NCBI GenBank assembly: GCA_003218885.1
Contig: QHOV01000155.1
Coordinates: 1-43,232 of the forward strand
Direction of reading: 5' to 3'
Length of the DNA: 43,232 nucleotides
From: Verrucomicrobiota bacterium
Lineage (GTDB): Bacteria; Verrucomicrobiota; Verrucomicrobiia; Chthoniobacterales; UBA10450
Notes under the pieces: model-generated
The model's input: the letters and a program-made list of their open reading frames with translations, nothing else
What the model was told of the DNA's origin: nothing
Databases searched by the model: none
Part shown: piece by piece, positions 8,137 through 27,383 of the stretch
Layout of the letters: each line of letters starts with the position of its first letter
Position numbering within the stretch: position 1 is the stretch's first letter
Position numbers and translations under genes: made by a program

Positions 8137-8955
8137 ATGACGGAATTGAGCCGCACCCATCTCGACCAACTCGAGAACCAGAGCATTTTTATTTTTCGCG
8201 AGGCGTATCACGCCTTCAAGAATATCGCCATGCCGTGGTCGATGGGCAAAGATTCAAACGTTTTGATTTGGCTGGCGCGCAAGTCTTTTTTCGGCCGCGT
8301 CCCATTACCGGTGTTGCACATCGACACGACTTACGAGTTTCCAGAAATGCTCGAGTTCCGCGAATGGGCGACGAAATATCACAACCTGAATCTGATTGTT
8401 AAAATCAATACCGAAGCGCGTGCGCGCGGAATCGGGTACGAGACGCACGATCCTGTGACGGTGACGCACGAATTGAAAACAGTCGCACTCCAACAGGTGC
8501 TCGCAGAATACAAATGGGATGCGCTGATCACTGGCATCCGCCGCGACGAAGATCCCACGCGCGCGAAGGAGCGATATTTTTCACCGCGCAACGCACAGTT
8601 CGAGTGGGATTATAAGGATCAGCCGCCCGAGTTCTGGGGCCAATTCGTAACCACAACGGCAAAAGGGGAACACGTTCGCGTGCAGCCGTTGCTCGATTGG
8701 ACCGAGGTAGATATCTGGCGCTACATCCAGCGGGAGAATATTCCCATCCCGAAAATGTATTTTTCTCGAGACGGGAAACGTTTTCGCTCATTAGGCTGTA
8801 GTTCCATCACGCATCCGATTGAAAGCACCGCCTCTACAATCGACGAGATCATCGCCGAACTGGAAGCAACAAAAACAACCGAGCGCGCTGGCCGTGCGCA
8901 GGACCAGTACGAGCGCAATGCCATGCAGAAGCTCAGGGCGAAGGGATTTTTATGA
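8137..8955 (+). CDS. cysD: Sulfate adenylyltransferase subunit 2
   Basis: Catalyses formation of adenosine phosphosulfate with CysN in sulfate assimilation. The 272-residue PP-loop protein has SMGKDS at about 35-40, then [33 protein letters not shown] and the C-terminal RAGRAQDQ. The usual CxPCT segment after RSLGC is replaced by GCSSITHP, a mild deviation. It overlaps cysN as ATGA, so the two subunits are coupled. It is slightly shorter than the 300 residues of E. coli CysD, with the loss at the N-terminus. Confidence 0.95.
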
Positions 8956-10919
8956 TCGGAAAAGCCAACGTCCAACGCTTAACTTCCAACGCTCAACGTC
9001 CAACTTCAGACATTGAGCCGAAGCTCAATGTCGTTTTCGTAGGTCATGTCGATCACGGTAAGTCCACGTTGATAGGTCGCATTTTGCACAACACTGGTTC
9101 TCTTCCGGAAGGCAAGATCGAAGAAATCAAGAAGGCCTGCGCGGCCGAGGGTACGGAGTTTGAATTCGCGTTTCTGCTCGATGCGCTTCTGGAGGAACAA
9201 AAGCAAAACGTCACCATCGATACTACTGAGATTTCTTTTCGAACGGCGCGACGCCGTTACGCCATCATCGATGCGCCTGGGCACAAAGAATTTTTGAAGA
9301 ACATGATCACCGGCGCATCACGAGCGGATGCAGCGATCCTCGTCATCGGCGCGGACGAAGGCGTGCGCGAACAGAGCCGCCGCCACGCTTACCTACTCAG
9401 TATGCTTGGCATCAAGCAAGTCGTTGTGGTCGTAAACAAAATGGATCTCGTCGATTACTCTGAAAAACGATTTCGCGAGATCGAGCAGGAGTATCGGAAG
9501 TTTCTTAAAGAACTCGGGTTGGACGCCCGAACGTTCATTCCAGCATCGGCCAAAGACGGCGAGAACCTCGCGAGAGCGAGTATGAAAATGAAATGGTACT
9601 GCGCTGCGAACGTTCTCGAAGCGCTCGATCTGCTGGAGCCGCAAAAGGGGGACATCGATCTGCCGTTGCGCTTTTGTGTTCAGGACGTTTATCGCTTCGA
9701 CGGACGGCGTATCATCGCGGGCCGAATTGAGACGGGAACGCTCAGGGTGGGGGACGAATTGATATTTTCGCCAGCAAACAAGTCGTCGATTGTCGCAACG
9801 ATCGAACGCTGGAACGGGCCGGCAAATGGTCCCGCCGTCGCTGGCGATTCGATCGGCATCACTCTTAGCGAACAGATTTTTGTCGAACGCGGCTACGTTG
9901 CATCACACCAGAACGAAACGCCAATCGAGACAAATCGTTTTCACGCTGACTTGTTCTGGATCGTGCGCGAGCCGCTGCGGGTGGGACACTTTTACGATCT
10001 GCGTTTGGCGACACAGCAGGTGAAATGTCAGATCGTTTCGATCGAGCAGGTCATGGATTCATCCACCCTTGAGATAAAGAGCAACCCGCCTTCGGTCGCC
10101 GCGGCGACCTCCGGCGTGGCAGGCGGGCGCGAACAGCTGGAGCGAAACGAGGTTGGCAGACTCACGATTCAAACCCGCGGACCGCTTGTTATCGACAACC
10201 ACGATCGTATTCCGAATATGGGGCGGTTTGTCATCATCAATAACGGACAAATCTGCGGTGGTGGCACGATTTTCGGCGGTGTGTATACGGATCGAACCGT
10301 CGCAAAGAGCAAAAATATCTTCTGGATCGAGGGAAAAATTACGGCCCGCGAACGGGCATTGCGAACCGGCCATCGCGGAGCGGTTGTTTGGTTGACGGGG
10401 CTTTCCGGTGCCGGGAAGTCAACCATCGCACAGTCACTCGAACGCGACCTGTTCAATCACGGCATGGATACGTATGTGCTCGACGGCGACAACATCAGGC
10501 ACGGCTTGAACTCGAATCTCGGCTTCTCGCCCGACGACCGGGTCGAGAACATTCGCCGAGTGAGCGAAGTGGCAAAACTCATGGCGGACGCTGGCACCGT
10601 GGTGATCACTGCATTCATCTCGCCCTATCGAATGGACCGCCGCCGTGCGCGCGAGATTGCACTCGAAGGCAACGCGGAGTTTATCGAAGTGTTCGTTGAC
10701 GCGCCGCTGGAAGTTTGTGAAGCGCGCGATCCGAAGAATCTCTATAAAAAAGCGCGGGCCGGGGAAATTCGGGAGTTCACCGGAATCGATGCGCCCTACG
10801 AAGCGCCGGACGACCCGGAGATCGTCGTGCATACAGATAAGCAAACCGTCGATGAATCCGTCGCGACGATTCTCGAACAGTTGTTGCCGCGCTTGAGAGA
10901 CTACGGCGCGGACGACTAG
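8952..10919 (+). CDS. cysNC: Bifunctional sulfate adenylyltransferase subunit 1 / adenylylsulfate kinase
   Basis: GTP-driven sulfate activation plus phosphorylation to PAPS. Of 655 residues, the N-terminal GTPase has GHVDHGKST (31-39), DAPGHKEF and NKMDLV. Beta-barrel domains follow, and the C-terminal APS kinase begins near 470 with GLSGAGKST and ends with the [12 protein letters not shown] and FTGIDAPYE motifs. Two stretches do not belong to the family. Residues 6-19 are the tandem peptides NVQRLTS and NAQRPTS coded by six heptanucleotide repeats. Residues 378-392 are coded by a 43-base palindromic element in the third domain. All catalytic motifs are intact, so the enzyme is probably active. 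Confidence 0.95.
8965..9006. repeat. Heptanucleotide repeat inside the cysN reading frame
   Basis: Six consecutive 7-base units related to YCAACGT fill this stretch. Because three units make 21 bases, the translation is a 7-residue peptide repeated twice ([14 protein letters not shown]). The same motif and nearly the same peptide occur inside obgE at 26594. Confidence 0.85.
10085..10127. repeat. Palindromic element inside cysN
   Basis: Ends CCCGCC and GGCGGG are complementary and enclose a perfect 16-base palindrome GGTCGCCGCGGCGACC (10094-10109). It codes for a Pro, Ser, Ala, Gly-rich insert where CysN relatives have a short loop. Confidence 0.75.
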
Positions 10920-26291: not shown

Positions 26292-27383
26292 ATGTTTGTC
26301 GATCGGATCAAAGTTTTCGTACAAGCGGGAAAGGGCGGGCGCGGGTGCGTCAGTTTTCGGCGGGAGAAGTTTGTGCCGAAAGGCGGGCCTGATGGCGGCG
26401 ATGGCGGACGCGGCGGCGACGTGATCCTACTAGCAGATCGGCATGTCGATAATCTCACCAATCTTTTCTACGAGCCGATCATTAGAGCAAAAAACGGCGA
26501 GCATGGGAAGGGAAAGAAAATGACAGGAAGCGCCGGAGCCGACAAAGTCGTGAAAGTTCCGGCAGGCACAGTCGTTTATGCGGCAGAAGGACCTGAACGC
26601 TCAACGTTCAACGTTCAACGTTCGACGTCCAGTGCAGAACAATTGGCCATTGGCAATCGGCAATTGGCAATTCCAATTGTGGATATCATCCGTGATGGGC
26701 AGGAATTTGTGCTTTGTCGCGGCGGAGCAGGGGGCAAGGGCAATGTGCACTTCAAAAGCTCGCGCAACCGCGCGCCGCGCCAATACACGGAGGGCGAAGA
26801 AGGTGAGGAAGGATATTTCCTGCTCGAACTACGAACGATTGCGGACGCGGGATTGGTTGGTTATCCGAATGCTGGCAAATCGACGCTATTGCGGAAAATC
26901 TCGGCTGCCCGACCGAAGGTTGCGGCATATCCGTTCACCACTTTGCATCCGATCGTCGGCGTGATTGAATTTCCAGGTTACCGGCGGGCCACCATTGCAG
27001 ATATTCCAGGCTTGATCGAAGGAGCGCACCGAGGGCTTGGTCTTGGCCACGAATTTTTGCGCCACATCACACGCTGCCGCATTTTAGTATTCGTGATCGA
27101 TGTCGCCGGAAGCGAAGGACGCAATCCGGTGGAAGACTTGCAGAATCTTCGACGGGAAATTGGTCTTTATGATCCGGCGCTTTCATCGCGACCATGGCTG
27201 GTTGTTGCCAACAAGATGGATTTGCCGGATGCGAAGAAAAACCTGGAAGCGGTGCAAGAGAGGTTCCCGAGGACGAAAATCATTCCGACGTCAGCAGCAA
27301 ATGGAGAGGGAATGGATGCATTAAAGGAAGCGCTCGCAGCGAGGACGACAAACGATAAAGATATTGTTTCCGCGGGAATTTGA
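26292..27383 (+). CDS. obgE: GTPase ObgE/CgtA with repeat-encoded insert
   Basis: Essential GTPase of ribosome assembly. The 363 residues have the glycine-rich Obg domain (1-150: KGGRGCVSFRREKFVPKGGP), the G domain GYPNAGKST, then TTLHPIVGV, DIPGLIEGA and NKMDLP, ending at the G domain. Residues 101-128 are foreign to the family: they follow GTVVYAAEG and precede DIIRDGQEFV, where relatives have about 8 residues. They are coded by two runs of heptanucleotide repeats. The frame and all motifs survive, so function is probably kept. The ATG at 26292 gives MFVDRIKVFVQAG, the normal start. Confidence 0.94.
   Translation: MFVDRIKVFVQAGKGGRGCVSFRREKFVPKGGPDGGDGGRGGDVILLADRHVDNLTNLFYEPIIRAKNGEHGKGKKMTGSAGADKVVKVPAGTVVYAAEGPERSTFNVQRSTSSAEQLAIGNRQLAIPIVDIIRDGQEFVLCRGGAGGKGNVHFKSSRNRAPRQYTEGEEGEEGYFLLELRTIADAGLVGYPNAGKSTLLRKISAARPKVAAYPFTTLHPIVGVIEFPGYRRATIADIPGLIEGAHRGLGLGHEFLRHITRCRILVFVIDVAGSEGRNPVEDLQNLRREIGLYDPALSSRPWLVVANKMDLPDAKKNLEAVQERFPRTKIIPTSAANGEGMDALKEALAARTTNDKDIVSAGI
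26594..26675. repeat. Two heptanucleotide repeat tracts inside obgE
   Basis: 26594-26628 holds five units of the TCAACGT type, three identical. 26641-26675 holds five units of an AATTGGC type. Together they code residues about 101-128 of ObgE, including NVQRSTS and AIGNRQLAI. The first tract matches the tract in cysN. Confidence 0.85.

Follow-up and report, generated by a model that had tools for sequence, protein, structure and literature searches.

We judge it probable, at roughly three chances in four, that the insert in the ObgE protein of a Ca. Udaeobacter-type Verrucomicrobia MAG is built from a pair of dispersed repeats with 7-base units, H1 (CAACGYY) and H2 (CAATYSG), and that it occupies a loop able to accommodate widely differing peptides. 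Each unit was found at many unrelated places; H1 is dispersed, lies mostly between genes, runs in the sense direction only where it is internal to a gene, and shares a core sequence between loci, and the ObgE loop itself has turned over among relatives. The best reading of these observations is one of dispersed heptamer repeats that appear to behave like the palindromic elements of Rickettsia. The window, by which we mean the whole 43,232-nt stretch of DNA analyzed, is the entire contig C63 of a 2.30-Mb draft MAG of 217 contigs that is 81.6% complete, and its relevant features are collected in Table 1.

Table 1. Features of the window that bear on the ObgE insert and its heptamer tracts.
Feature	Position	Strand	Basis
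cysN-type gene, EF-Tu-like GTPase domain + APS kinase domain	8952..10919	+	
Second H1 tract, codes CysN N-terminus	8965..9004	+	TRF
obgE, ObgE/CgtA GTPase	26292..27383	+	Start = Met aligning with solved Obg proteins; Pfam GTP1_OBG
H1 heptamer tract, CAACGTT type, ~5 units, codes ERSTFNVQRSTS	26594..26628	+	Sequence, TRF
ObgE loop modelled as unordered, pLDDT <50, residues 102-125 from Met start	26595..26666	+	
H2 heptamer tract, CAATTGG/CAATCGG type, ~4.7 units, codes QLAIGNRQLAI	26640..26672	+	Sequence, TRF

The reading frame of obgE is open throughout the gene and its product matches Pfam GTP1_OBG with an E value of 1.1e-52; the closest named Obg relatives are soil MAGs titled Verrucomicrobia bacterium, with further ones named Spartobacteria, Chthoniobacterales and Candidatus Udaeobacter. 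TRF reports two period-7 arrays within it, H1 at 26596-26628 (4.7 copies, 92% matches) and H2 at 26640-26672 (4.7 copies, 84% matches). With up to two mismatches the doubled H1 unit matches the window seven times, where shuffles average 0.47 with a maximum of 3, and the doubled H2 unit four times, where they average 0.58 with a maximum of 3. The two neighboring in-frame heptamer tracts that a preliminary description had placed at 26594-26675 are therefore confirmed by direct reading, TRF, shuffles and the open frame; that description had taken them for one repeat family, and in this it must be amended, as H1 and H2 are two distinct families joined there. Between aligned blocks the ObgE segment measures 32 residues against 7 in the solved Obg of B. 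subtilis, and 33 against 8 in the solved ObgE of E. coli, which amounts to approximately 25 extra residues, and H1 and H2 code most of the segment. The earlier claim that relatives lack the insert holds for these distant solved proteins and fails for close relatives: the nearest one, at 94-95% identity in Obg, carries this insert too, albeit with substitutions, and some version of it is present in most genus members read, such that absence from close relatives is rejected. In an AlphaFold2 model of ObgE (mean pLDDT 77.6), whose top hit in the PDB is the Obg of Thermus thermophilus (1udx), the insert (102-125) is predicted to be flanked by two strands. The heptamer tract said to be shared with cysN is likewise real by TRF; it lies some 17.6 kb from obgE and codes the very N-terminus of CysN.

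A search of the genome and of related genomes for the two 7-mers bears out the suspected dispersal, in that H1 is scattered across its own genome and the family, and H2 across its own genome. Allowing two mismatches, the three-unit H1 pattern has 60 + 52 matches (112) in its own genome and the reversed pattern 0 + 0; 100 of these 112 matches comprise 46 tracts at a minimum of 38 sites, and these 38 sites were classed. Allowing one mismatch, it has matches in 76 of 83 family genomes, with six control matches overall. In a phylum-wide draw H1 matches occur in 49 of 288 genomes and 39 of 152 genera, and in a few of the genomes drawn the reversed control outnumbers the pattern. H2 has 19 + 18 matches in its own genome versus 1 + 1 for the control, four of them being the window's own tract. 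Near obgE, in 36 named loci, 24 period-7 arrays were found (control 0). In 180 kb outside obgE there were seven arrays of period 7, eight of period 8, five of period 14 and four of period 21, with a control of at most 0.25 per period; that period-8 arrays are as numerous there as period-7 arrays (8 vs 7) counts against the reading of dispersed heptamer repeats. When a 168-kb sample of the genome is taken together with the window, the period-7 excess comes only from the window's own arrays, and the zero H1 tracts in that sample are uninformative since contigs with known H1 or H2 matches were excluded from it.

The placement of the H1 tracts was classed with a codon-based gene caller written for the purpose, which is a rough tool. 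By these calls, 35 of 47 own-genome tracts are intergenic, 8 are gene-terminal (5 sense, 3 antisense) and 4 are internal, in stretches of which called genes occupy 86%. The internal tracts, whose coding strand is in every case the one that reads CAACG, lie in ObgE, CysRS, a UvrA-like protein and a B12-binding/MeaB fusion. For the nearest relative, G055, we used a 1-mismatch listing from which most but not all places were fetched; of its 25 tracts, 18 are intergenic, 2 N-terminal and 5 internal. The latter are again all sense and lie in ObgE, CysRS, queuine tRNA-ribosyltransferase (TGT), the UvrA-like protein, here at a different site, and a protein that has no Pfam match, so that ObgE and CysRS are common to both genomes. 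The preliminary view that intergenic repeats of this kind spread into coding DNA is supported by both sets of counts and by the in-frame copies in other conserved genes. The restriction of internal tracts to the sense direction fits the genetic code, since the four H1 units are stop-free in the CAACG direction and the complements of CAACGTT and CAACGCT contain TGA. Furthermore, a 7-base unit visits all three frames, and a unit free of stops thus encodes a single 7-residue peptide whatever the phase. Of all 16384 heptamers, 11260 lack a stop on a given strand.

At several intergenic copies, heptamer arrays form the arms of hairpins. Seven loci (L179, L180, L186, L187, L189, L194 and L209) have a copy with a pair of opposite arms that spans 58-125 bp, and for four of them the single-stranded DNA fold is good (z -3.3 to -7.8). 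In CysRS and MeaB the copy is a single arm with no good fold (z -0.3 and -1.2), and the ObgE stretch folds with a z of -4.4, mainly from its H2 part. A known structured RNA was considered as the identity of H1; among seven loci Rfam found no such RNA other than a tRNA near one copy. The first units of own-genome tracts differ (AAACGCC 10, AAACGTC 10, AAACGTT 5, and others), and in a crude pattern count GTAG was outside the 12 commonest four-base words preceding these tracts, as opposed to being a fixed tag. Spread driven by a RAYT-type transposase was also considered; the sole Y1_Tnp match in the 81.6%-complete genome is weak (E 1.5e-5) and its locus has scattered CAACG only and no H1 array.

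The loop of ObgE could be cut at 109 of 110 obg loci to give 81 distinct sequences, those of L062, L084 and L096 having two halves out of a common frame as cut. Repeats were scored with 300 shuffles per loop, and the two palindromic types were assigned by pattern or manually. Across the order, 42 of the 81 loops have a repeat of any of six types and 39 have none: H1 in 20, H2 (either strand) in 26, TTCATCC in 2, ATCAAAC in 2, the palindrome P1 (GTCATCCTGAGCGAAGTCGAAGGATC) in 6 and the palindrome P2 (GGCGGTC..GACCGCC) in 2. On a quick tree built without the loop, P1 needs six changes (6 rows), TTCATCC two (2 rows), H1 13 and H2 14, and well-supported branches alone force two changes for P1 and two for TTCATCC. 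Given these multiple changes of P1 and TTCATCC on a loop-free tree, the site has been filled more than once by unrelated repeats. The 39 loops with no scored type differ widely in length, so that the site is variable even without these repeats, which counts against the repeat-spread reading. The ObgE loop is an old hypervariable site that has taken in repeats of six types or more. In six relatives scattered on the tree (L012, L017, L019, L029, L034 and L096) it is coded by a palindromic repeat, GTCATCCTGAGCGAAGTCGAAGGATCCCG ... CGGGATTCCTCGACTTCGCTCGGAATGAC.

Loops of CysRS, TrmD and the UvrA-like protein also hold different repeats in different relatives, as in ObgE. The CysRS linker precedes the DALR domain, and among 30 genus loci judged by eye an H1 peptide is clear in 15, a different repeat is present in 4, the linker is plain and charged in 7, and 4 loci are partial, out of frame or unclear. 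TrmD could be read at 22 of 30 loci, with loops of 14-36 residues, several of which carry H1 peptides or KIENRKSK, the peptide that an AAAATCG heptamer would code. The 29 UvrA-like loops span 11-41 residues; two are short (11 residues, from strains that are not near-identical) and the rest, by eye, are mostly H1, H2 or a further palindrome. The UvrA-like gene is one of approximately 2000 codons (L200, L313-L341), a normal-sized uvrA also being found elsewhere in the genome, and in this genome's copy several repeat types contribute peptides (GNAERPTPNAERPN, AAGVYDRRDGARKAPLQ and VISSGAKRSRGTP..SIDFARDDG). The genome's own TrmD (L203, on contig C180, ~1447-1580) is out of frame around its H1 tract, in that the N-terminal part hits a stop just 5' of the tract and the C-terminal part continues in another frame, at a locus that also holds N; in the relatives read, TrmD occupies a single frame. 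The disruption may reflect either a genuine break in the gene or a fault of the assembly.

Loop lengths were compared by pairing each loop with the highest-scoring loop of another length that was at least 60% identical to it, and 67 of 92 such comparisons contain a single gap. Seven residues, which equals three heptamer units or 21 nt, is the gap in 17 of the 67, one residue in another 17, five residues in 4, six in 3 and eight in 4. By gene, 7-residue gaps make up 7/17 in ObgE, 6/17 in the UvrA-like protein, 3/16 in TrmD and 1/17 in CysRS. Among pairs of unequal length, the fraction that differ by a multiple of 7 is 0.255 in TrmD (jitter p 0.00025), 0.03 in CysRS (p 0.92), 0.138 in the UvrA-like protein (p 0.026, though near 1/7), and in ObgE 0.18 for heptamer loops (p 0.004) and 0.14 for loops without heptamers (p 0.087), these p values being a guide only since the rows are related. 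Seven-residue steps are, then, common in ObgE and the UvrA-like protein, weaker in TrmD and absent in CysRS. The idea that heptamers are frame-neutral in threes draws support from ObgE, the UvrA-like protein and in part TrmD, but not from CysRS; this last result, together with one-residue gaps that equal seven-residue gaps overall, counts against the repeat-spread reading.

As for how the repeats may have arrived, copies would spread via transposition, or via template switching or exchange between arrays; most insertions into genes would be purged, those that survive would sit in loops or linkers, and loop length would afterwards drift by three-unit steps, with the repeat-coded peptide having no needed function. 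Transposition, through an enzyme that was lost or went unseen, and template switching or exchange are both tenable, because no transposase link, target duplication or sister empty site was found. That no transposase link was found, and neither a target duplication nor a clean empty site at the sister-genome sites compared, counts against the repeat-spread reading. A further and more tentative proposal, which we consider possible but would not favor, is that arrays of stop-free heptamers serve as loop cassettes that are blind to frame and can be exchanged. Short arrays scattered over genes and spacers would supply homology for ectopic exchange or template switching, by which unrelated repeat peptides would overwrite loops of essential proteins and alter their length in quanta of 21 nt. 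Were this so, a unit length of 7 would be favored since a stop-free unit reads alike in all three frames.

On the available sequences, the simplest view of the ObgE loop would be one of neutral tolerance. A functional role is unlikely by our estimate; here, the repeats would have been recruited because loops rich in Q, N, R, S, T and P help ObgE, CysRS, TrmD and the UvrA-like protein act on the ribosome, tRNA or DNA. Several proteins of translation and repair do retain the inserts, which keep the frame in most of the relatives read, and the CysRS linker keeps to 18-31 residues whatever its sequence. However, unrelated peptides swap at one site, the ObgE loop is predicted to be unordered in the model, and its amino acid change per site exceeds that of the rest of the protein in four of six close pairs (it is lower in two); between the window and its nearest relative these values are 0.055 for the loop and 0.022 for the rest of ObgE.

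Quite improbable, to our minds, is local slippage alone, by which arrays would have grown in place from native codons with no movement between loci, polymerase slippage favoring 7-base units; a proposal of this kind for 7-nt units is set out in the accessible text of PMC4679880. Unit number does change, as the three-unit length steps and one 7-bp difference at a shared site attest. It is otherwise the same in the two nearest genomes at the ObgE tract and at 8/9 other shared sites, the ninth being the one that differs by 7 bp (13 locus pairs were matched and 11 aligned, of which two went uncounted, a UvrA-like pair aligned off the tract and a pair with overly diverged flanks). Slippage also sits poorly with an H1 unit at no fewer than 38 own-genome sites and in 76/83 family genomes, with opposite arms that form hairpins, and with a non-tandem 21-nt core, CCGATAAATCGCGAGCAGGCG, that replaces three units within H1 tracts. 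This core occurs, with up to two mismatches, in 21 of 35 genus genomes with zero control matches, in the H1 tracts of the ObgE, TrmD, CysRS and UvrA-like genes and elsewhere; it codes SDKSRAG or PINREQA, peptides that both turn up in ObgE loops, in different relatives, and its third frame has a stop. Core copies without flanking H1 were also observed (L299:6694, L353, L355, L358 and L366; L363 and L365), in two recurring contexts that resemble coding sequence, one of them UvrA-like in its reading, and these count against the spread of H1. Since some copies stand in coding stretches without surrounding H1, the core is possibly a repeat in its own right; either way, its presence at unrelated loci is hardly explained by local slippage and argues for copying rather than local slippage alone. 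The shared core and the opposite arms thus rule against pure local slippage as the main account. Fast phase-variation tracts were also considered, but the constancy of unit number speaks against them, and the tracts look old, slow and weakly constrained as opposed to fast switches. Last, an assembly or binning artefact at the repeats, which the draft state of the genome and its TrmD, out of frame at H1 on an N-containing locus, might suggest, is next to negligible, since the ObgE insert recurs with point differences in another MAG and similar loops recur in many.

Returning to dispersed repeats as the preferred reading, RPEs are described in the available portions of several reports as dispersed palindromic repeats of several families, located between genes and in frame in solvent-exposed parts of unrelated conserved genes (PMC10969869, PMC2229807, PMC3767692). 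The likeness in principle that had been proposed appears sound, as H1 is dispersed, mostly intergenic and also in frame within several unrelated conserved genes (ObgE, CysRS, UvrA-like and B12-binding/MeaB; TGT and a second UvrA-like site in G055). RPEs, as described there, differ in being 105-146 bp in length with sequences of their own, whereas the arms of H1 are tandem 7-base units; H1 copies have two opposite arms at seven loci, and other copies, CysRS and MeaB included, are single arms. A close precedent from the same phylum is Opitutus terrae (Verrucomicrobia), where, in the accessible text of PMC3733652, GTAG REPs are reported inside genes, both uvrA genes included; the same source places REPs in tRNA synthetases of other species, and different REPs at approximately one recB site in two Xanthomonas. 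These REPs are characterized there as hairpins of 20-40 bp, tagged at one end by GTAG or CGTC, the GTAG ones being tied to RAYT transposases, whereas H1 is built of heptamers, with no fixed tag and no RAYT link in its own genome.

The heptamer repeats of cyanobacteria go by the name of STRR. Published heptamer families include TAACTGA of Beggiatoaceae, GGGAATC of Xanthomonas and those of Calothrix (PMC4679880, PMC4692102), and heptamers are discussed as a common repeat class (PMC4679880); in the parts of these papers available to us they are tandem 7-base units found between genes and patchy over taxa, and H1 is similarly tandem, dispersed and mostly intergenic. Compared by eye, the H1 and H2 units (CAACGYY, CAATYSG) differ from the units given there, TAACTGA, GGGAATC and GGGGA(C/T)T. 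TAACTGA is described as having stops in one direction, with copies in function-assigned proteins mostly at their ends, whereas H1 and H2 are stop-free units lying mid-enzyme in conserved proteins, some intergenic copies being hairpins. A literature search that covered few subscription journals recognized, in the text available, no paper on the H1 or H2 units or on the loop turnover. Dispersed repeats that invade essential genes in frame are known chiefly from Rickettsia and, in the form of REPs, from some genomes, and this soil lineage offers many related MAGs with several repeat types at one loop, in which the 7-versus-3 arithmetic of the unit accounts for both tolerance and length steps. Two questions become testable as a result, namely how small repeats spread with no evident transposase, and whether loops coded by repeats are neutral in enzymes of ribosome assembly, tRNA and repair.

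Two minor observations may be added. At three intergenic H1 copies (L181, L188 and L207) the array ends, by eye, 6-7 nt 5' of the ATG of the next open frame, and the element may sit in the mRNA leader there. In two genomes of the phylum-wide draw, G096 and G301, the reversed H1 control is itself frequent (23, and 31 + 20, respectively), and these control matches hint at other heptamer families, of the GCAACYY type, elsewhere in the phylum.
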